A stretch of 64,000 nucleotides of DNA. Origin: Bradyrhizobium sp. S69 (GTDB lineage: Bacteria > Pseudomonadota > Alphaproteobacteria > Rhizobiales > Xanthobacteraceae). Position numbers and translations under genes: made by a program. This document shows positions 15,091 through 63,186 of the stretch, one piece after another. The stretch is taken from positions 62,001-126,000 of the forward strand of contig NZ_LMUK01000038.1 of the NCBI RefSeq assembly GCF_009766005.1, given 5' to 3'. The notes under the pieces were generated by a model, which was given only the letters and a program-made list of their open reading frames with translations, was not told the DNA's origin and ran no database searches. Within the stretch, counting starts at the first letter, position 1, and each line of letters begins with the position of its first letter.

Positions 15091-15175
15091 CTGCCCTGCT
15101 TGAGAGCCCGCACGGTGGGCCTTCACGGCGGACGGTGATCGTCCGTTCGCCGCCTCGTTGGGGATACCGATCAAT

Positions 15176-15619
15176 ATCAGCAAGTCAGAAGGTAACAAGG
15201 CGCTCGTTGGTTGGGCGCTGGCTTACGGACTTTTGAGATAAGACACGTGCAACCTCGCCATCGCCAACGAGCTTGCTGCTCCCGAAAAACTTCACCAAGG
15301 CATGAGCCGCGCCATTCATGCCGATACCAAAGCTCCCTGACTGGCTTCCGGAAGGCGTTCCGCGATCTCGCGCTTCGAGGCGCAGCAGGCCTGATCGCTG
15401 AAGGCGACTACGTGGCCGGCCGATGAAAGAGCGGTCGGACGCACACCGGACCGGCATTCAACGAATTTTTGTGGTGCCACTGCCAGCCGCGACGGAACGG
15501 AAGATGTATTTCACCGGCACCACCTTGCTCCGCATCCCAAACGGCACGACCGCCAAAAAGATCTGCCTGGACAAAGGGCACACCCAGCCCCCAGCAACGG
15601 CCTCATCCGAGCCGTGTAA
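15176..15619 (+). pseudogene. Broken copy of the SnoaL-like ester cyclase gene at 22507
   Basis: The DNA aligns along its whole length with the intact gene at 22507-22956. Clear blocks include CTCGCCATCG, GGAAGATGTATTTCACCGGC and the tail CATCCGAGCCGTGTAA against CATTCGGGCAGCCTAA. The start codon has become ATC. There are early stops (for example after GACTTTTGAGATAA) and frame changes around 15290 and 15425, so no full product is possible. The total span is 444 bp against 450 bp in the intact copy. It is a decayed duplicate that kept its upstream element. Confidence 0.85.
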
Positions 15620-22506: not shown

Positions 22507-22956
22507 ATGAGCAAGGCAGAAGACAATAAGGCGATCGTGGGCCGTTGGTTCACCGATTTTTGGGGTAAGACCTGTAATCTCGCCATCGTCGATGAACTCG
22601 CCGCTCCCGACATGCTCCTGCAGTATTCGCTGCACGAGCCGCGCCGCGGCCACGCCGACATCAAAGCCTTCATGAAGGGATTTAGGGAAGCGTTTCCGGA
22701 TCTCATGTTCGAGGGCGCCGCGGACCTTATTGCGGAAGGAGACTACGTCGTCGGCCGTTGGAAGGGTGGCGGAACCCACACCGGTCCGGCGTTCAGCGAT
22801 TTCCTGATCGGCTCGCTGCCTGCGGCCACTGGACGGAAGATGTATTTCACCGGAACTACCGTACTTCGGATCGCGAACGGGAAGATTGCGGAAGAGATCG
22901 GTCTGGACGACGGTGTCACCGCGCTCCAGCAGCTTAAGCTCATTCGGGCAGCCTAA
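22507..22956 (+). CDS. SnoaL-like ester cyclase/NTF2-fold protein
   Basis: A 149-residue protein of the SnoaL-like polyketide cyclase family, a small cone-shaped alpha+beta fold found in cyclases, isomerases and stress proteins. Signatures are AIVGRWFTDFWGKTCNLAIV, LHEPRRGHADIKAFMKGFRE, AFPDLMFEGAADLIAEGDYV and VGRWKGGGTHTGPAFSDFL. It ends EEIGLDDGVTALQQLKLIRA. AAGGA precedes the ATG. The natural substrate of this branch is unknown. It has a broken duplicate at 15176, and its C-terminal 17 residues recur at the end of the hydrolase at 53694. Confidence 0.9.
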   Translation: MSKAEDNKAIVGRWFTDFWGKTCNLAIVDELAAPDMLLQYSLHEPRRGHADIKAFMKGFREAFPDLMFEGAADLIAEGDYVVGRWKGGGTHTGPAFSDFLIGSLPAATGRKMYFTGTTVLRIANGKIAEEIGLDDGVTALQQLKLIRAA

Positions 22957-23462: not shown

Positions 23463-23633
23463 TCAAGTGTGACAGCCGCATTGCGTTGAGGAGCTGCGCC
23501 CCTCCGCGGAAACGGCGGAGCTGTCCGACGTATCGTTACCGTACTGTCCGAAATGGCGCGCGGCCGAAAGCCGGAGCGTAAGATAGCCGTATCGAAGCGC
23601 TTCGGTCAGCGCCTGCTGCAAGATCATATCCAT
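23463..23633 (-). CDS. Small conserved ORF, duplicated at 55507 (unknown function)
   Basis: The 56-codon frame starts MDMILQQALTEALRYGYLTL and continues RLSAARHFGQ. The copy at 55507-55668 starts MDMIFQEALTEALRYSYAAV and continues RLSVARHFRQ. Similarity between the loci also runs upstream at DNA level (TTTGAAAG, GTGCGA, then TACGATGGATATGATC). The C-terminal halves differ. A GTG four codons upstream is conserved in both and could be the start. No domain is recognised. It could be a short helical protein or a shared remnant of a longer gene. Confidence 0.4.
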   Translation of the reverse strand: MDMILQQALTEALRYGYLTLRLSAARHFGQYGNDTSDSSAVSAEGRSSSTQCGCHT

Positions 23634-23863
23634 CGTAGTCACCAATTCGCGTTTTCTGTCGCGACTATCGATGTTCACCGACGGAGTCGCACCCCAAAGA
23701 TTGCTTTCAAATCGAAATTAGCCCTTATGAGCTTCTATTGCCGAAACACAACGGTTCGAGCAGATGAAGATCGGGCCGGCCGGAGCAGCCGCAGTTCATT
23801 AAAACGGAGCGCCTTTACGGCAACGCGGATCGGATGCGCGCCACCGGTCGCCATGTAAATTTC

Positions 23864-51987: not shown

Positions 51988-52069
51988 GGTTTCATCGGCG
52001 AAATGTTGTTGATCTGGAGGAAACTTACGACATAAAAGGGGTCATGATTTGACGCAGGACGACGTTTTT

Positions 52070-53131
52070 ATGCCTCAGAACGACATTGATGACGAAGCGG
52101 CGCCCAAGATGCTTGGACTTCTGCTGATCGATGGGTTTGCGCTAATGTCTTACGCTTCCGTGATCGAACCTTTCCGCGCGGCGAACACCCTCGCCGGCCG
52201 GGAGTTGTATCGCTGGACCCATATTTCTGTCGACGGACGGCAGGTACGTGCGTCGACGGGCGCCGGCATGCTCGCCGACCAAGCGGTCGGCGAGCCGATT
52301 TTCTGCGATACCCTGTTCGTGTTTGCTGCAGGGGATCCGACAGCGTTCTCCGATCCGAAGACGTTCGCTTGGCTTAGGCGTCTGGCTCGCGCGAACGTGC
52401 GGCTCGCCGGCGTTTCGGGCGGACCCTTTCTGCTGGCGCGAGCCGGGCTCCTGACAGGCTATCGGGCGACGATTCATTGGGACCATCGGTCCGCTTTCCT
52501 GGAAGCTTTCCCGACGTCCGACCTCGAGCCCGGGCTCTACGTGATCGACAGGCGCCGGCTCACTTGCGCGGGGGGGACTGCGGGACTCGATCTGGCCATC
52601 GAGCTGATAGAGCGCGAACACGGCCACGAACTCGCCTTGCAGGTCGGTGAATGGTTCATTCGGACCGAACCTCGTCCGGGGGCCAAATCACAGCGTCTGA
52701 GTTTGCGCGAGCGCGTGGGGATCGGCAATGATCGGGTCATCAGAGTTCTAGCCGAAATGGAAGCTAGTCTCGAACAGCCGACCGGAATGCGCAAACTGGC
52801 CCAAGTCGCCGGCGTCTCTGTGCGCCAGCTCGAACGTCTTTTCGCCGCGCATCTGCGCGAAACCGTTGGAGAATGCTATCTCAGGATCAGGCTTGAGAAG
52901 GCCGCAGAGCTTCTGCGGAAGACCGGATTGTCGGTTACCGCGATCGGGCTCGCCTGCGGTTTTCAAAGCAGCAGCCACTTCTCCCGTAGCTACAAGTCGA
53001 GATACGAAATGACACCGAGTTCGGATCGGATCCGGGCCGCACTGCAACCGCGCAAACTGAATCGCTCGGATGCGTCGCACCAGGCCGATAAGGTAAGGCG
53101 GCGACATCCTGGAATTTCACGCGTTGTTTGA
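52070..53131 (+). CDS. GlxA-family AraC regulator (DJ-1/PfpI domain plus AraC helix-turn-helix)
   Basis: The product is 353 residues. The N-terminal class-I-amidotransferase-like sensor (about 15-190) has LGLLLIDGFALMSYASVIEP and LAGVSGGPFLLARAGLLTGY. The AraC domain (about 240-335) has GMRKLAQVAGVSVRQLERLF and TAIGLACGFQSSSHFSRSYK. GbdR, CdhR and SouR, which sense betaine, carnitine and sarcosine, share this architecture. It is divergent from soxB, so it is the likely activator of that operon. A TTG at 52049 with AAAGGGG upstream is an alternative start. Its 3' third is duplicated at 55982. Confidence 0.93.
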   Translation: MPQNDIDDEAAPKMLGLLLIDGFALMSYASVIEPFRAANTLAGRELYRWTHISVDGRQVRASTGAGMLADQAVGEPIFCDTLFVFAAGDPTAFSDPKTFAWLRRLARANVRLAGVSGGPFLLARAGLLTGYRATIHWDHRSAFLEAFPTSDLEPGLYVIDRRRLTCAGGTAGLDLAIELIEREHGHELALQVGEWFIRTEPRPGAKSQRLSLRERVGIGNDRVIRVLAEMEASLEQPTGMRKLAQVAGVSVRQLERLFAAHLRETVGECYLRIRLEKAAELLRKTGLSVTAIGLACGFQSSSHFSRSYKSRYEMTPSSDRIRAALQPRKLNRSDASHQADKVRRRHPGISRVV

Positions 53132-53693
53132 TCATCGCCTACTGCTCGCTTCAATCGCGCCCCCGAGTCTGGTTGCGCGTTCGCTTCCTTTGCATTTAGC
53201 ACCAATTAGGCGTCGACGAGCTTTGCTAGGCGGATCAATCCACATTCGGTAAATGGCCAGCATTTGATGGCTTATCTTTCGGTTTCGCCCCGTTTACAGA
53301 GCCGCCGATCGTGCGGACGCTCCGGCCGCCGAAGCAGGCGCTCCTTCGCGAAATGAGCCCGCCGATGATGCTGACCATCGATACGATCGGTTCCGATCAG
53401 ATCGGCGCTTCCGCCGAGATTTGGGCTCCAGTAAGAGGAGTGGGACGCTGACAAGCGCGGGCTGGTCAAGCGCGAAATCCCCTTCCTAAGATTCACTTCC
53501 TCGGTCGCTTCTTCCAACGGGGCCAATCTTCGACGGCTGCCAACCTGGCAGGCTCGCGAAGCCGTCAGCTCTTCTTGCTTTCGAATTCGAAGAATATCGG
53601 CGTCGGCCGGAACGTGGACTTCTGCGAAGGGTTTGCACCACGAGCTGCAGCAAGCGCCTCTTGGCAGCCAAGCTCGTGAAAAGGAATGCCCAA
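53132..53693. other. Gap with tail of a segmental duplication and a decayed repeat element
   Basis: Bases 53132 to about 53195 still align with the sequence after the duplicated AraC fragment (about 56460-56515). Around 53575-53610, on both strands, are degraded forms of the repeated element (minus strand TTCGAAAGCAAGAAGAGCTG; plus strand GAAGAATATCGGCGTCGGCC). The plus-strand form lies about 90 bp before the hydrolase start. No complete gene is supported. Confidence 0.45.
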
Positions 53694-54731
53694 ATGCCTA
53701 AGACTCGTCAAGAGTCGACTTTCTCTTCGGGCGGCGAGACGTGCGCCGCCTGGCTGTATCCCGTCCTGAGCGATCCTGGCCCTCGCCCAATCATTGTCAT
53801 GGCCCACGGATTGACTGGCACGCGCCGCGACCGGCTTAATTCTTTCGCTGAGCGTTTCGCGGCCGGTGGCATTACTGCTCTTGTATTCGACCACCGCGGC
53901 TTCGGAGACAGCACCGGTGAGCCGGATCTGTTTGATCCTGCTCGGCAGCTCGAAGACTGGCGGAGCGCCATCGCGTTCGCCCGATCCCTCCCCAACATCG
54001 ATCGCGGCCGCGTGGCGACATTCGGATCGTCTCTCGGGGGTGGTAACGCGCTTGCGGCGGCGGCCGAAGATCCTCTAATAGCCGCCGCCATCAGCCAGGT
54101 TCCTTTCTTGGACATGAGCCAAGCATTTGCTAACACTCGCGAGGTTGCGGAGAAGATGCATGCGGTAGCAGCTGAACGCGGGTTTCTGCCGGCCGTTGGG
54201 CAGCCAAACGAGGCTGCGTTCATCAACGCACCCGGCGCTGAAGCTGGCTGGCGTCGCGTCGTCGCAATCGGCGACGAATCGCGTTGGCGAAACCGAGTGT
54301 CGGCTGCCTGGCTGCTGGAATCTCCGTATCACGTGATCCAGCATGCAGACAGTCTTCACTGCCCATGGCTGGTGTGCGTCGCCGGGAATGACCAAGTCGC
54401 CACGCCTGCTCTCGCGATCGACGCCGCGCGGCGAGCCCCGAAAGGCGAGCTCTGCATATATCCCGACATCGACCATTTCGATATCTACGACGGCCCGCCA
54501 CATGAGGCAGTCGTAGCGGACGAACTCGCGTTCCTTTCCCGGCACCTGCTCGGGCGAACGATCCACGGGATTCCCAAAGCGGGATCTGTGTTCTCTCGAG
54601 TTTACGTCCCTCCGAAGAGTGCAGCACAAAATGGGGACGGCCACTCAGAGAAGGTTTCCCAGGCAACGTCGGTTGCACCAGACGATGGCGTCACGGCTCT
54701 TACGCAGCTCGGACTAATCAAGGCTGTCTGA
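53694..54731 (+). CDS. Alpha/beta hydrolase with an unusual C-terminal extension
   Basis: The product is 345 residues. The core fold has VMAHGLTGTRRDRLNSFAER (oxyanion region), ALVFDHRGFGDSTGEPD, the nucleophile elbow VATFGSSLGGGNALAAA, the acid in CVAGNDQVATPALAIDAA and the histidine in YPDIDHFDIYDGPPHEAV. The family fold ends near residue 300 (ELAFLSRHLLG). The remaining 45 residues end PDDGVTALTQLGLIKAV, which matches the end of the SnoaL-like protein at 22507 (LDDGVTALQQLKLIRAA) at 12 of 17 positions. This suggests a fusion to a relic SnoaL tail. AAAGGAA precedes the ATG. Confidence 0.9.
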   Translation: MPKTRQESTFSSGGETCAAWLYPVLSDPGPRPIIVMAHGLTGTRRDRLNSFAERFAAGGITALVFDHRGFGDSTGEPDLFDPARQLEDWRSAIAFARSLPNIDRGRVATFGSSLGGGNALAAAAEDPLIAAAISQVPFLDMSQAFANTREVAEKMHAVAAERGFLPAVGQPNEAAFINAPGAEAGWRRVVAIGDESRWRNRVSAAWLLESPYHVIQHADSLHCPWLVCVAGNDQVATPALAIDAARRAPKGELCIYPDIDHFDIYDGPPHEAVVADELAFLSRHLLGRTIHGIPKAGSVFSRVYVPPKSAAQNGDGHSEKVSQATSVAPDDGVTALTQLGLIKAV

Positions 54732-54777
54732 TCGGCGATCGAATCCCTCAGGCGGGCTTCGTCCCGCGAACTTCAGA

Positions 54778-54812
54778 AGAGGCCCGCTAGGTGCGGGCCT
54801 CTCCTTTTCCGG
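54778..54812 (+). terminator. Rho-independent terminator after the alpha/beta hydrolase gene
   Basis: AGAGGCCCGC and GCGGGCCTCT form a 10-bp GC-rich stem with a TAGGT loop, followed by CCTTTTCC. It lies 46 bp after the stop codon. A smaller hairpin (GCGGG CTTCGT CCCGC) precedes it. Confidence 0.8.
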
Positions 54813-54860
54813 ACTTGGCCCTTCGGTAGTTTGACGTAAGGGCTCTACATCAATCCTGGC

Positions 54861-54881: not shown

Positions 54882-54947
54882 CCCAGACCGGGTCGATGCG
54901 TAACTTCATTCATAGTGACGCGCACCGACGAACAGGAACATACCGAA

Positions 54948-55343
54948 ATGCCCCGCATAGGATATGCACTCGGCGCTTTCAATTTATTCCGCATCGCCCA
55001 CCTTCAATCTGAATCTGCTCCGGCAGGCGAAACACCGCTGTGACGATTTGATCGCGGGAGTTGTCTCAGATGGACGCTTATCGCCCGCAGGGGTATTGAT
55101 CCCATGATTCCGCTCGAAGAGCGGCTTGAAGTCGTGCCCAGCATACGTTTCGTTGATGCCGCATTGCCGGCATTGACCCACGGTAAACTCGGAATCTGGC
55201 GCGAGCTACGGTTCGATATCGCGTTCAAGGGCGATGACTGGCGCGGGACCGAGAAGGAAAATCGGCTGGAGCGCGACTTCGCGGGCGTGGGCGCTGAGAT
55301 CGTGTATTCCCTATACACAATCGCGCCCGCTACAGCCGCTTGA
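54948..55343 (+). pseudogene. Broken copy of the cytidylyltransferase-like gene at 61397
   Basis: The first frame gives MPRIGYALGAFNLFRIAHLQ, then hits a stop at about 55043. A second frame resumes MIPLEERLEVVPSIRFVDAA, LPALTHGKLGIWRELRFDIA, FKGDDWRGTEKENRLERDFA and ends early. These align in order with the intact protein at 61397 (MTRIGYASGAFDLFHVGHLN ... FKGDDWRGTEKGDRLEREFA). The HVGH nucleotide-binding motif has become RIAH, there is a frameshift near 55010, and the C-terminal STSSTALRK motif is lost. Confidence 0.85.
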
Positions 55344-55506: not shown

Positions 55507-55668
55507 TCAAAGACGCGTCGTTGTGCAAGACGGCAGTTCGCCCGGACAGGAGGAGGACGGACGTGAGCCGTCCTCCTCCTGTCTGAAATGACGCGCTACG
55601 GAAAGTCGAACCGCGGCGTAGCTGTATCGCAGCGCTTCGGTCAGCGCCTCTTGAAAGATCATATCCAT
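55507..55668 (-). CDS. Small conserved ORF, second copy (see 23463)
   Basis: The 53-codon frame starts MDMIFQEALTEALRYSYAAV and continues RLSVARHFRQEEDG. It shares its N-terminal 28 residues, and the DNA upstream, with the copy at 23463. After residue 30 the two diverge. No domain is recognised. The second copy of the GAAAG.AAT-type flank lies upstream at about 55720-55745 on the minus strand. Confidence 0.4.
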   Translation of the reverse strand: MDMIFQEALTEALRYSYAAVRLSVARHFRQEEDGSRPSSSCPGELPSCTTTRL

Positions 55669-55937
55669 CGTATTCACCCATTCTCTTTCCGGCGTGAATA
55701 TCGATTTTCTGCGGCCGACTCGCACTCTCGAAATTACTTTCAAATTGAAAAGGACATAAATCGCCATTGTTCTCATCGGGCGTAGCTGGGGCGGATATCA
55801 CCCTCGGTTAACATTAGGCTCACTTTCCGATCGAGTCGCGACCGTTACTTGTCCGCTCCGTCTACTGCTTATTTTCTGTGGGGAGCGCTCCATGCGTCGC
55901 TTCAACTCTACGTCTTCAAATCCAAAGGGACCTCTTA

Positions 55938-55957: not shown

Positions 55958-55981
55958 GCGGGCGGGTCCGAACACGGCCAC

Positions 55982-56478
55982 AAACTGCGCCTTCCAGGTC
56001 GGTAAATGGTTCGTTCGGACCGAATCTCTGCGACCGCGTGGGGGGCGGCAACGACCGGGTCATCAGAGTTCTGGCGAAAATGGAAGCAAGTCTCGGACGG
56101 CCGATCGGAGTGCGCAAACTGGCCCAAGTCGCCGGCGTCTCTGTGCGCCAGTTCAAACATCTTTTTGCCGCGCATCTGCGCGAGGCCGTTGGAGAATGCT
56201 ACCTCAGGATCAGGCCTGAGAAGGCCGCAGAGCTTCTGCGAACGACTAGATTGCTGGTTACCGCGAACGGGTTTGGCTGCGGTTTTCGGAGCAGCAGCCA
56301 CTTCGCCCGTAGTGACAAGTCGAGATACAGATTGGCACCGAGTTCGGACCGGACCCGGGCCGCGCTGCAACCGCGCGAAATGGATCGCTCGGATGCATCG
56401 CACCACGCCGATAAGGTAAGGCGGCGACGCCCTGGAATTTCAAGCATTCTTTTATGGACCGCCTACGGCTCGCTTTGA
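55982..56478 (+). pseudogene. Truncated duplicate of the GlxA-type regulator (AraC domain only)
   Basis: Bases 55982-56515 align with about 52632-53195, with one internal deletion of about 36 bp near 56030. The frame is open and encodes VIRVLAKMEASLGRPIGVRK, LAQVAGVSVRQFKHLFAAHL and the second helix-turn-helix as ANGFGCGFRSSSHFARSDKS. The DJ-1 sensor domain is absent, and no convincing start exists, apart from a possible GTG near 56038. The changes I-to-N and YK-to-DK in the second motif would weaken DNA binding. It is most likely a relic; a free-standing DNA-binding domain is a less likely alternative. Confidence 0.75.
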
Positions 56479-56730
56479 TCGCGCACCCGGGCCCGGACGC
56501 GCGTGCACTTCCTTTTTAGCGGCTCGCCGTGACCGCCTCTATCGGCTTGCACCCGTGGCGAGCGACGTTCCGCCCTACCGCCGAAGGGAGCGAAACCGTG
56601 TGGGATTTCCGGTAAGCCGCTTGTAGAGTTAGTCCCTTCGGCAACTGGCGATGTCCGACTTGTAATACGTTGCGGATCCGGGAAGGCTTTCGCGCCGGGT
56701 CCGAAAGGTGCCTCTGCGAGCTGATTGCGT

Positions 56731-61396: not shown

Positions 61397-61885
61397 ATGA
61401 CCCGAATTGGATACGCCAGCGGCGCCTTCGATCTCTTTCATGTCGGTCACTTGAACATTTTGAGGGCAGCCAAAAGCCGGTGCGATTTCCTGATAGCGGG
61501 CGTCGTCGCCGACGACGTGCTCTGGATCCACAAAGGCGTGATACCCGTTGTTCCTTTGGCTGAGCGACTGGAGATTGTCCGAAACGTCCGCTTTGTGGAC
61601 CAAGCCGTACCTGCTTTCGTGAACGACAAGTTGTCGATCTGGCATGATCTGAGATTCGACGTATTCTTCAAGGGCGACGATTGGCGCGGTACCGAAAAGG
61701 GAGATCGCCTTGAGCGTGAGTTCGCCGCCGTGGGAGTTGAGGTCGTCTATTTCCCATACACCAGATCGACTTCCAGCACCGCGCTGCGCAAAACCCTCGC
61801 CAACATCGACCGCATCGCCGCGGTGAACTTATTGCACTGCGGACGCTCCGGAGGCGCTGTCGTCGGCTGCGGCGAGGCCGCCTAA
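61397..61885 (+). CDS. Cytidylyltransferase-like nucleotidyltransferase (TagD/RfaE2 type)
   Basis: The product is 162 residues. GYASGAFDLFHVGHLNILRA holds the HxGH nucleotide-binding motif (residues 15-18). FKGDDWRGTEKGDRLEREFA is the central loop, and STSSTALRKTLANID corresponds to the ISSTxLR motif at the end. The family includes glycerol-3-phosphate and sugar-phosphate cytidylyltransferases, which make a CDP- or ADP-activated precursor. The extra tail (about residues 135-162) is not conserved. A broken duplicate lies at 54948. The true substrate is unknown; no polyol or teichoic-type genes are adjacent. Confidence 0.88.
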   Translation: MTRIGYASGAFDLFHVGHLNILRAAKSRCDFLIAGVVADDVLWIHKGVIPVVPLAERLEIVRNVRFVDQAVPAFVNDKLSIWHDLRFDVFFKGDDWRGTEKGDRLEREFAAVGVEVVYFPYTRSTSSTALRKTLANIDRIAAVNLLHCGRSGGAVVGCGEAA

Positions 61886-62006
61886 CGGGGTCTGGATTGT
61901 CGCGGCGACCCGGAAAACGGGTGGTTTCTGCCGCCCAGGAGAGCGAGAACTCCAGCACTCAAGGCCTTACGGGGTCTCGGACGGTCCGCCCGCCCACAAT
62001 CTTGGA

Positions 62007-62028
62007 TTCGAAAGCAAGACCCGGAGTG
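62007..62028 (+). promoter_or_regulatory. Repeated GCAAGA-N2-CGGAG element before ada
   Basis: TTCGAAAGCAAGACCCGGAG then TG; this copy matches the consensus at every position. CGGAG ends 59 bp before the ATG. A TCTTCA lies 24 bp downstream. It is not the classical Ada box (AAAGCGCAA-type). Confidence 0.55.
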
Positions 62029-62085
62029 TCCAGAAGGCGTCCCGGCGGCATCTTCACACGAACGATCCATACGAAGGCGAACGCC

Positions 62086-63186
62086 ATGATGACCACCGTT
62101 GACGTTAGAAACAGCAATCCCGCACAGTCCGTCGCGGACGATCCGCGCTGGGCAAGTGTAGTGGCGCGCGACCGGACCGCCGACGGTAAATTTTGGTATT
62201 CCGTCGTCACCACGGGAATCTATTGTCGTCCGTCCTGCCCCTCCCGGGTGGCCAATCCCAAAAACGTCCAAATTCACGACACGCTCAAAGCCGCGAAAGC
62301 GACCGGCTTCCGGCCGTGCAAGCGCTGCAATCCGGAAGGCCCGTCGGTTGATTCCGACAACGCTGCGATCGTAGCGAAGGCCTGCGGGCTCATCGATCGG
62401 GCCGAGGAGGAGCCGTCCCTCACCGACCTTGCAAAAGCGGTCGGTCTGAGTCCGGGCTACTTCCATCGTGTCTTCAAATCGGTCACGGGGGTTACGCCCA
62501 AGGACTACGCTGGCGCGCGACGGGCGACGCGCGTACGGGCCGGCTTGGGCAACGGCAGTAGCGTGACCGAAGCGATGTACGACGCCGGTTTCAATTCAAG
62601 CGGCCGATTTTACGAGAAATCCAACGAGATACTTGGGATGACGCCGTCACAGTATCGTTCCGGCGGCGTTGATGAAGAAATAAGATTCGCCGTGGGAGAA
62701 TCCTCGCTCGGCGCGATATTGGTTGCTTCAAGCAAGAAGGGGGTTGCGTCGATCTTGATCGGAGACGATCCGAACGAGCTGGTCGAGGATCTTCAGGACC
62801 GTTTCCCGAAGGCGCACCTGGTCGGGGGCGACAAGGACTACGAGTCGCTCGTCGCCCGGGTAGTCGGATTTGTAGAGGCGCCGGGTCTCGGACTCGATCT
62901 TCCGCTCGACGTCCGCGGCACCGCGTTCCAGCAGAGGGTCTGGCACGCTCTGCGGGAGATACCGGTCGGACAGACGGTCTCGTACGCCGTAATTGCGCGA
63001 AAGATCGGTTCGCCCAAGGCCGTTCGCGCGGTGGCTGGCGCTTGTGCGGCAAACAATCTTGCCGTGGCGATCCCATGCCATCGGGTGGTGCGGAATGACG
63101 GCGCCCTCTCGGGCTACGCGTGGGGCGTCGAACGCAAGCGCGCCCTGATCGACCGCGAGGCGCAGTCCGCGGCAGCCGGTGCGTGA
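62086..63186 (+). CDS. ada: Ada: methylphosphotriester/O6-methylguanine-DNA methyltransferase and regulator
   Basis: The product is 366 residues. The N-terminal zinc domain, with the methyl-acceptor cysteine, has WYSVVTTGIYCRPSCPSRVA and ATGFRPCKRCNPEG. The AraC-like middle part has LTDLAKAVGLSPGYFHRVFK. The C-terminal methyltransferase has RGTAFQQRVWHALREIPVGQ and the active-site AIPCHRVVRNDG. All three modules are complete. It is self-activating after alkylation in known systems. Whether it responds to alkylation here or to the upstream repeated element is open. Start: ATG 62086, or 62089. Confidence 0.96.
   Translation: MMTTVDVRNSNPAQSVADDPRWASVVARDRTADGKFWYSVVTTGIYCRPSCPSRVANPKNVQIHDTLKAAKATGFRPCKRCNPEGPSVDSDNAAIVAKACGLIDRAEEEPSLTDLAKAVGLSPGYFHRVFKSVTGVTPKDYAGARRATRVRAGLGNGSSVTEAMYDAGFNSSGRFYEKSNEILGMTPSQYRSGGVDEEIRFAVGESSLGAILVASSKKGVASILIGDDPNELVEDLQDRFPKAHLVGGDKDYESLVARVVGFVEAPGLGLDLPLDVRGTAFQQRVWHALREIPVGQTVSYAVIARKIGSPKAVRAVAGACAANNLAVAIPCHRVVRNDGALSGYAWGVERKRALIDREAQSAAAGA

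Follow-up and report, generated by a model that had tools for sequence, protein, structure and literature searches.

In gene fusion by deletion, neighbors lying on one strand come to share one reading frame once the intervening DNA is lost. The two known protein families closest to the case described here are the PF12146 alpha/beta hydrolases (with solved members such as PDB ID: 7qjm, GrgF in PDB ID: 6lzh, and monoglyceride lipase in PDB ID: 6eic) and the SnoaL-like polyketide cyclases of PF07366 (e.g., PDB ID: 8ysb, PDB ID: 3f9s, and IdmH in PDB ID: 6hnn). Literature searches on gene fusion and on SnoaL and hydrolase proteins in Bradyrhizobium brought up no fusion of the two. In Bradyrhizobium sp. 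S69, a 64-kb stretch of DNA, positions 62001-126000 of contig C45 (hereafter the window), contains a hydrolase gene that ends in the tail of a SnoaL-like gene. We consider it quite probable that this is an in-frame partial gene fusion formed at a place where a resident SnoaL gene decayed.

The open reading frame lies where the initial annotation described it, at 53661-54731 on the forward strand, and encodes 356 amino acids when counted from the TTG codon given in the open reading frame list. This TTG at 53661 is a mechanical choice; the likely start is the ATG at 53694, which agrees with the starts of the orthologs and is preceded by AAGGA on its 5' side. The predicted chimeric protein (53694-54731, forward strand) is then 345 residues long, with the stop codon at 54729-54731; its composition of an alpha/beta hydrolase and a SnoaL-derived C-terminus follows from the Pfam match, the orthologue alignment, and codon-position differences. 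Three segments can be delineated, all on the forward strand: the hydrolase part common to the orthologs, including about 21 residues past the last helix of the fold (53694-54614, from the orthologue 3'-end profile and alignment), a 22-codon linker that contains the junction and lies outside both profile matches (54615-54680), and the last 16 codons and the stop of a TQLG-subtype SnoaL gene (54681-54731, from an nhmmer match, comparison of SnoaL C-termini, and a tail search in 265 genomes).

The hydrolase part matches Hydrolase_4 (PF12146) with 65.5 bits against a curated cut-off of 27 (E 5.7e-18), and 7qjm is its best match in Foldseek. The nucleophile elbow G111-S-S113-L-G is present; in an 18-row alignment Ser113 and Asp233 are invariant and His261 occurs in at least 90% of the rows, and we take these three residues to be the catalytic triad, as in the family. 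Compared with eight of the nine orthologs from the genus (the frameshifted L060 being left out), the gene shows 170-181 differences at third positions in 304 codons, 49-63 at first positions, and 42-48 at second positions; the count at third positions is thus about 3-4 times that at first or second positions, with one comparison giving 2.7 times. Judged by its sequence, the hydrolase is an intact enzyme evolving under constraint. It scores 137.3 bits with the model of the acyl-homoserine lactonase UilS (NCBIfam NF047920), below the equivalog cut-off of 400. A horizontal copy carried on a plasmid was also considered and rejected: identity to the hydrolase stays under 60% in all 37 matched plasmid records, and the alignment ends at query residue 305 or earlier in the 15 plasmid matches listed. 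The AlphaFold model, whose pLDDT averages 74 over the whole chain and falls below 50 at residues 310-345, contains an alpha/beta hydrolase core; the last helix of the fold ends at residue 286 (numbered from the ATG).

The hydrolase is present at E 1e-60 or better in only 10 of 265 genus genomes, and it is 69-73% identical to eight other genus members. The SnoaL tail occurs in none of the nine other genus orthologs, which end earlier and differently, and no SnoaL match was found 3' of the hydrolase in any of them at E 0.01. Fourteen homologous loci were also translated, four of them from the same genus genomes and ten from outside the genus (L026-L035, among which L029 and L033 were judged from partial frames that include the C-terminus); none encodes the SnoaL peptide. 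Wider homologs (L036-L040) were too weak and partial to be used. The ortholog of genome G265 (L060) is frameshifted at about residue 229, so its C-terminal end was read from the shifted frame.

These comparisons bear directly on the idea that the extension is an ordinary family feature and that all such hydrolases carry the SnoaL tail. Most genus orthologs do have about 20-40 extra residues after the fold; however, the tail shared within the genus is unrelated to the SnoaL peptide, which is missing from all nine genus orthologs and all ten homologs outside the genus. For the genomes searched, the idea is refuted, and we assign it a negligible probability. It does explain part of what had been taken for foreign sequence. 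A profile of the orthologue 3' ends, built without L058 and L060, matches 54414-54614 (E 6.8e-39), so that about 21 residues beyond the fold, up to base 54614, are shared with genus orthologs. Much of the 45-residue extension noted initially is therefore an ordinary genus-level hydrolase tail, while its end, 54681-54731, is indeed SnoaL-derived.

The SnoaL origin of this end is evident at the DNA level. A profile of SnoaL 3' ends of one subtype (nhmmer; built from the 38 of 70 SnoaL loci with a readable 3' end) matches 54680-54810 with 49.9 bits (E 5e-15), whereas the best score in 30 random 64-kb windows generated from the dinucleotide statistics of the window was 10.7 bits, which rules out chance similarity. 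Three matches in the window exceed the inclusion threshold: this one, the gene at 22507, and a pseudogene near 15.4 kb. The left edge of the match is abrupt and falls at 54681, on the DDG codons. To the right, as expected for a fusion formed by the decay of a neighbor, the DNA homology crosses from coding sequence over the stop codon into the flank, through TGATCGGC and into the GAGGCCCGC/GCGGGCCTC hairpin; a merely protein-level resemblance is thereby ruled out. When 54640-54850 was searched against the 265 genus genomes, the three strongest foreign matches (E 1.2e-7, 7.7e-7, and 9.3e-6) all started at query base 42, i.e., at 54681, on the 3' ends of SnoaL genes; the best of them, in one genome, covers 44 nt at 86% identity. 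The tail search in the 265 genomes listed 101 matches, of which 98 lie on SnoaL genes (the one in G305 being frameshifted), two on truncated SnoaL fragments, and one on the hydrolase itself. At E 0.01, Pfam detects no SnoaL domain (PF07366) in the hydrolase, which has no more than the last 16 codons of such a gene. The two truncated fragments are SnoaL 3' ends that have lost their 5' part, of about 52 codons in G270 (about 5148-5303 of L152) and 63 codons in G195 (about 4822-5010 of L153), in open frames of 85 and 82 residues, respectively; loss of the 5' part of SnoaL genes thus recurs.

The initial annotation related the tail to the SnoaL-like gene at 22507. The likeness that it reported is real: by hand count, PDDGVTALTQLGLIKAV and LDDGVTALQQLKLIRAA are identical at 12 of 17 residues, and GACGATGGCGTCAC and GACGACGGTGTCAC at 12 of 14 nucleotides. 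This gene (22507-22956, forward strand, intact) is nevertheless of another subtype, ending in QQLKLIRAA, and could be dismissed as the source, since its paralog at C45:150585 matches better (36 of 42 nt) and the TQLG-subtype SnoaL genes of other genus genomes better still. The search of the whole 7.5-Mb genome found three intact SnoaL genes of this kind, namely 22507, C45:150585 (QQLGLIKLAA), and a more distant one on C48 (LQLGLIRTP), and no TQLG-type gene elsewhere. The hydrolase tail reads TQLGLIKAV. Because the tails in the own genome differ from the TQLG subtype, the 22507 gene is a cousin of the donor rather than the donor. By sequence, the donor type is the TQLG subtype (LDDGVTALTQLGL[IL]KAA), which is common in the genus: many other genomes of the genus contain genes with the ending TQLGL(I/L)KAA or a close variant. 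The closest donor-type gene, at L111, contains the identical peptide DDGVTALTQLGLIKA, and the 16 tail codons keep 15 of 16 residues of its product. The pseudogene at 15171-15577 (forward strand, several stops, E 3.6e-61 to the subtype profile), located downstream of a ferredoxin-like gene, is not the donor either.

Gene order downstream of the tail indicates where the fragment came from. A nucleotidyltransferase-like gene (CTP_transf_like) at 54930-55340 on the forward strand is decayed and frameshifted, with its former ATG at 54948; over 307-392 bp it is 66-67% identical to the gene that lies 3' of SnoaL in four relatives. The neighbors of SnoaL genes were compared at 33 loci (L111-L143, with L081-L110 left aside). 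A nucleotidyltransferase-like gene follows the TQLG-type SnoaL gene on the same strand at four of them (L111, L117, L120, and L123) and stands on the other side of SnoaL at L135 and L136. At 20 of the 33 loci, the 1.5 kb fetched downstream of SnoaL contains, on the same strand, an Ada-type gene with at least 68% identity to the one at 61897, and at two of these the nucleotidyltransferase gene lies between them. From the DDG codon to the nucleotidyltransferase start there are 267 nt here and 257, 258, 258, and 275 nt in the four relatives, so that the remnant lies at the conserved spacing, as expected of a fragment in its ancestral place in the gene order. The SnoaL fragment therefore appears, on the strength of this sequence comparison, to be at its original site and to derive from a gene that stood here. 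Several points count against such decay in place: the linker DNA matches neither parent significantly, the presumed parental order was found in no genome, the SnoaL genes adjacent to the hydrolase in relatives are of another subtype and lie upstream rather than downstream (with none nearby in two of nine), and SnoaL stands directly before the nucleotidyltransferase in only 4 of the 33 loci compared.

The fragment could instead be a copy, either because a SnoaL 3' end recombined together with the next gene onto the hydrolase or because the hydrolase transposed into a SnoaL gene. Divergence of the hydrolase (69-73% identity) and its patchy occurrence (10 of 265 genomes) suggest acquisition, and other repeats are present in the region (55969-56515 with 52615-53191; 55579-55750 with 23544-23717). 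An intact nucleotidyltransferase-like gene (61397-61885) and an Ada-type gene (61897-63186) also lie 6.7 kb downstream (together 61397-63186, forward strand); these are the kinds of gene that follow TQLG-type SnoaL genes in relatives. On the other hand, the sequence upstream of the hydrolase showed no 5' part of a SnoaL gene, and no donor copy was found in the genome; we regard a copy as unlikely compared with decay in place. An assembly artefact joining two loci is conceivable for a draft of 62 contigs; however, the SnoaL part keeps a collinear order with the next gene, and no second copy of it, from which a misjoin could have come, was found in the genome. Such an error is extremely improbable.

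The exact breakpoint is not seen, since neither parent matches the linker DNA significantly. Compared with the 3' flanks of the orthologs, 54615-54680 does not score above shuffled sequences in seven of seven cases; compared with the 90 nt that precede the DDG codon in SnoaL genes, it does not in 33 of 38. For the remaining five SnoaL genes, no more than 5 of 100 shuffles scored as high; about two such genes would be expected, and the signal is weak at best. At the protein level, alignments of some orthologs extend to residues 316-331 of 345, over part of the linker, those of G038 and G152 only by reading through their own stops. Because these variable tails align over it, part of the linker may be an old hydrolase tail or flank. 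That the junction is open and in frame is not evidence of selection, since by a rough estimate (1/3 for the frame, about 0.35 for 22 stop-free codons) this arises by chance about 1 time in 10.

Beyond the stop codon, the hydrolase has acquired a terminator-like hairpin (GAGGCCCGC/GCGGGCCTC, 54779-54801, forward strand), which lies within the SnoaL profile match and comes from the 3' flank of the SnoaL gene. Inspected by eye and allowing base changes, a similar hairpin occurs 16-42 nt past the stop in 25 of the 38 TQLG-type SnoaL genes, the other 13 having none or a different one. The pattern GAGGYCCGC-loop-GCGGGCCTC is found at two places in the whole 7.5-Mb genome, and a reversed-pattern control at none. 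As a signal the structure is inconspicuous: its T-run is short and the terminator scan did not call it, a consensus scan around the gene returned no promoters and three terminator-like sites (shuffled mean 2.5), and the folding of the 99-nt 3' flank as a whole is not unusual (z -1.23). The case for the hairpin is thus one of sequence homology.

In the relatives, SnoaL and hydrolase genes do have a relationship. At seven of nine orthologous loci (L052, L053, L055, L056, L058, L059, and L060), the hydrolase is preceded on its own strand by a SnoaL gene at a distance of about 130-140 bp; none was found near the hydrolase in the other two fetched regions. Where the frames are readable, these upstream genes belong to another subtype, ending in QQLNILRAA; the one at L058 (genome G305) is frameshifted. 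The arrangement suggests a two-gene operon, and the two genes tend to be partners. The fusion may be a late by-product of this neighborhood, but no genome was found with the presumed parental order of hydrolase followed by TQLG-type SnoaL. The initial annotation suggested a recombination between two genes of the same putative regulon; no homolog of the AraC-type gene at 52049 was found at E 1e-10 around the nine orthologs (14-15 kb each, one 10 kb). In the window, the 3' part of the AraC/GlxA-type regulator gene recurs in decayed form at 55969-56515; this copy is 81.5% identical to 52615-53191 and includes about 60 bp of downstream flank. A 174-bp dispersed repeat (55579-55750 and 23544-23717, 77% identical) overlaps short minus-strand ORFs with similar peptides (MDMI.Q.ALTEALRY...RLS.ARHF).

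Such a partnership might lend the tail a use: the C-terminal helix of SnoaL could have been kept for binding SnoaL proteins or for being recognized like one. The adjacency in seven of nine relatives is in keeping with this, as are the 15 of 16 residues shared with the subtype member at L111, and in the SnoaL model the segment forms a short C-terminal helix (residues 136-142), which is only indicative, as the model is of low confidence (mean pLDDT 52). Within the hydrolase, however, the same segment is predicted to be disordered (pLDDT about 30, in a part of the alignment with almost no other sequence), the tail is found in one genome only, and an open in-frame junction is not a rare accident. 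The retained residues are no proof of use either, because all of the silent differences may be older than the fusion. A useful tail is accordingly very unlikely. Its most specific form, in which the helix acts as a docking tag and the hydrolase replaces the C-terminal arm in SnoaL oligomers (with the 22507 gene product or a paralog encoded about 24.6 kb past the window end as partners), is just as doubtful; if true, the tag would restore, between the proteins, a partnership that exists in relatives as a SnoaL-hydrolase gene pair.

Decay of a resident gene, our preferred reading, would have proceeded as follows. The site would once have had a TQLG-subtype SnoaL gene immediately 5' of the nucleotidyltransferase-like gene, an order still present in relatives. 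A deletion, or an equivalent illegitimate recombination, would then have taken all of this SnoaL gene except the last 16 codons, setting the 3' end of the hydrolase beside the SnoaL remnant in the same frame. With the remnant so joined, the hydrolase frame would continue over about 22 codons of linker and 16 of SnoaL and then use the stop codon and 3' hairpin of SnoaL. We infer that the hydrolase is still active and tolerates the peptide as a passenger, for which no function is needed. The fusion is a clear fossil of gene loss, probably an accidental one.

What happened at this locus is genome decay, genuine and clean but of an ordinary kind, and no new system is indicated. It is an unusually readable case of a bacterial protein gaining a C-terminal tail, as the fragment is in place and its former neighbor is still recognizable. 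It is also a caution: where unrelated proteins are identical over a short C-terminal stretch, that stretch can be gene debris instead of a functional motif. For finding the function of these enzymes, the SnoaL-hydrolase gene pair may help more than the fusion.

Compared with the solved PF12146 alpha/beta hydrolases, the fused protein shares the whole fold and the catalytic pattern, but its identity to the best-matching ones is about 25% or less. From the SnoaL-like polyketide cyclases it has only the C-terminal segment of the family, 16 residues, together with the 3' flank; the rest of the SnoaL domain is absent, and the fused hydrolase is not a SnoaL protein. Unlike in the usual fusion by deletion, the second gene is reduced to its last 16 codons and adds no second domain; what the hydrolase gene gains is a peptide tail with a stop codon and a 3' hairpin.
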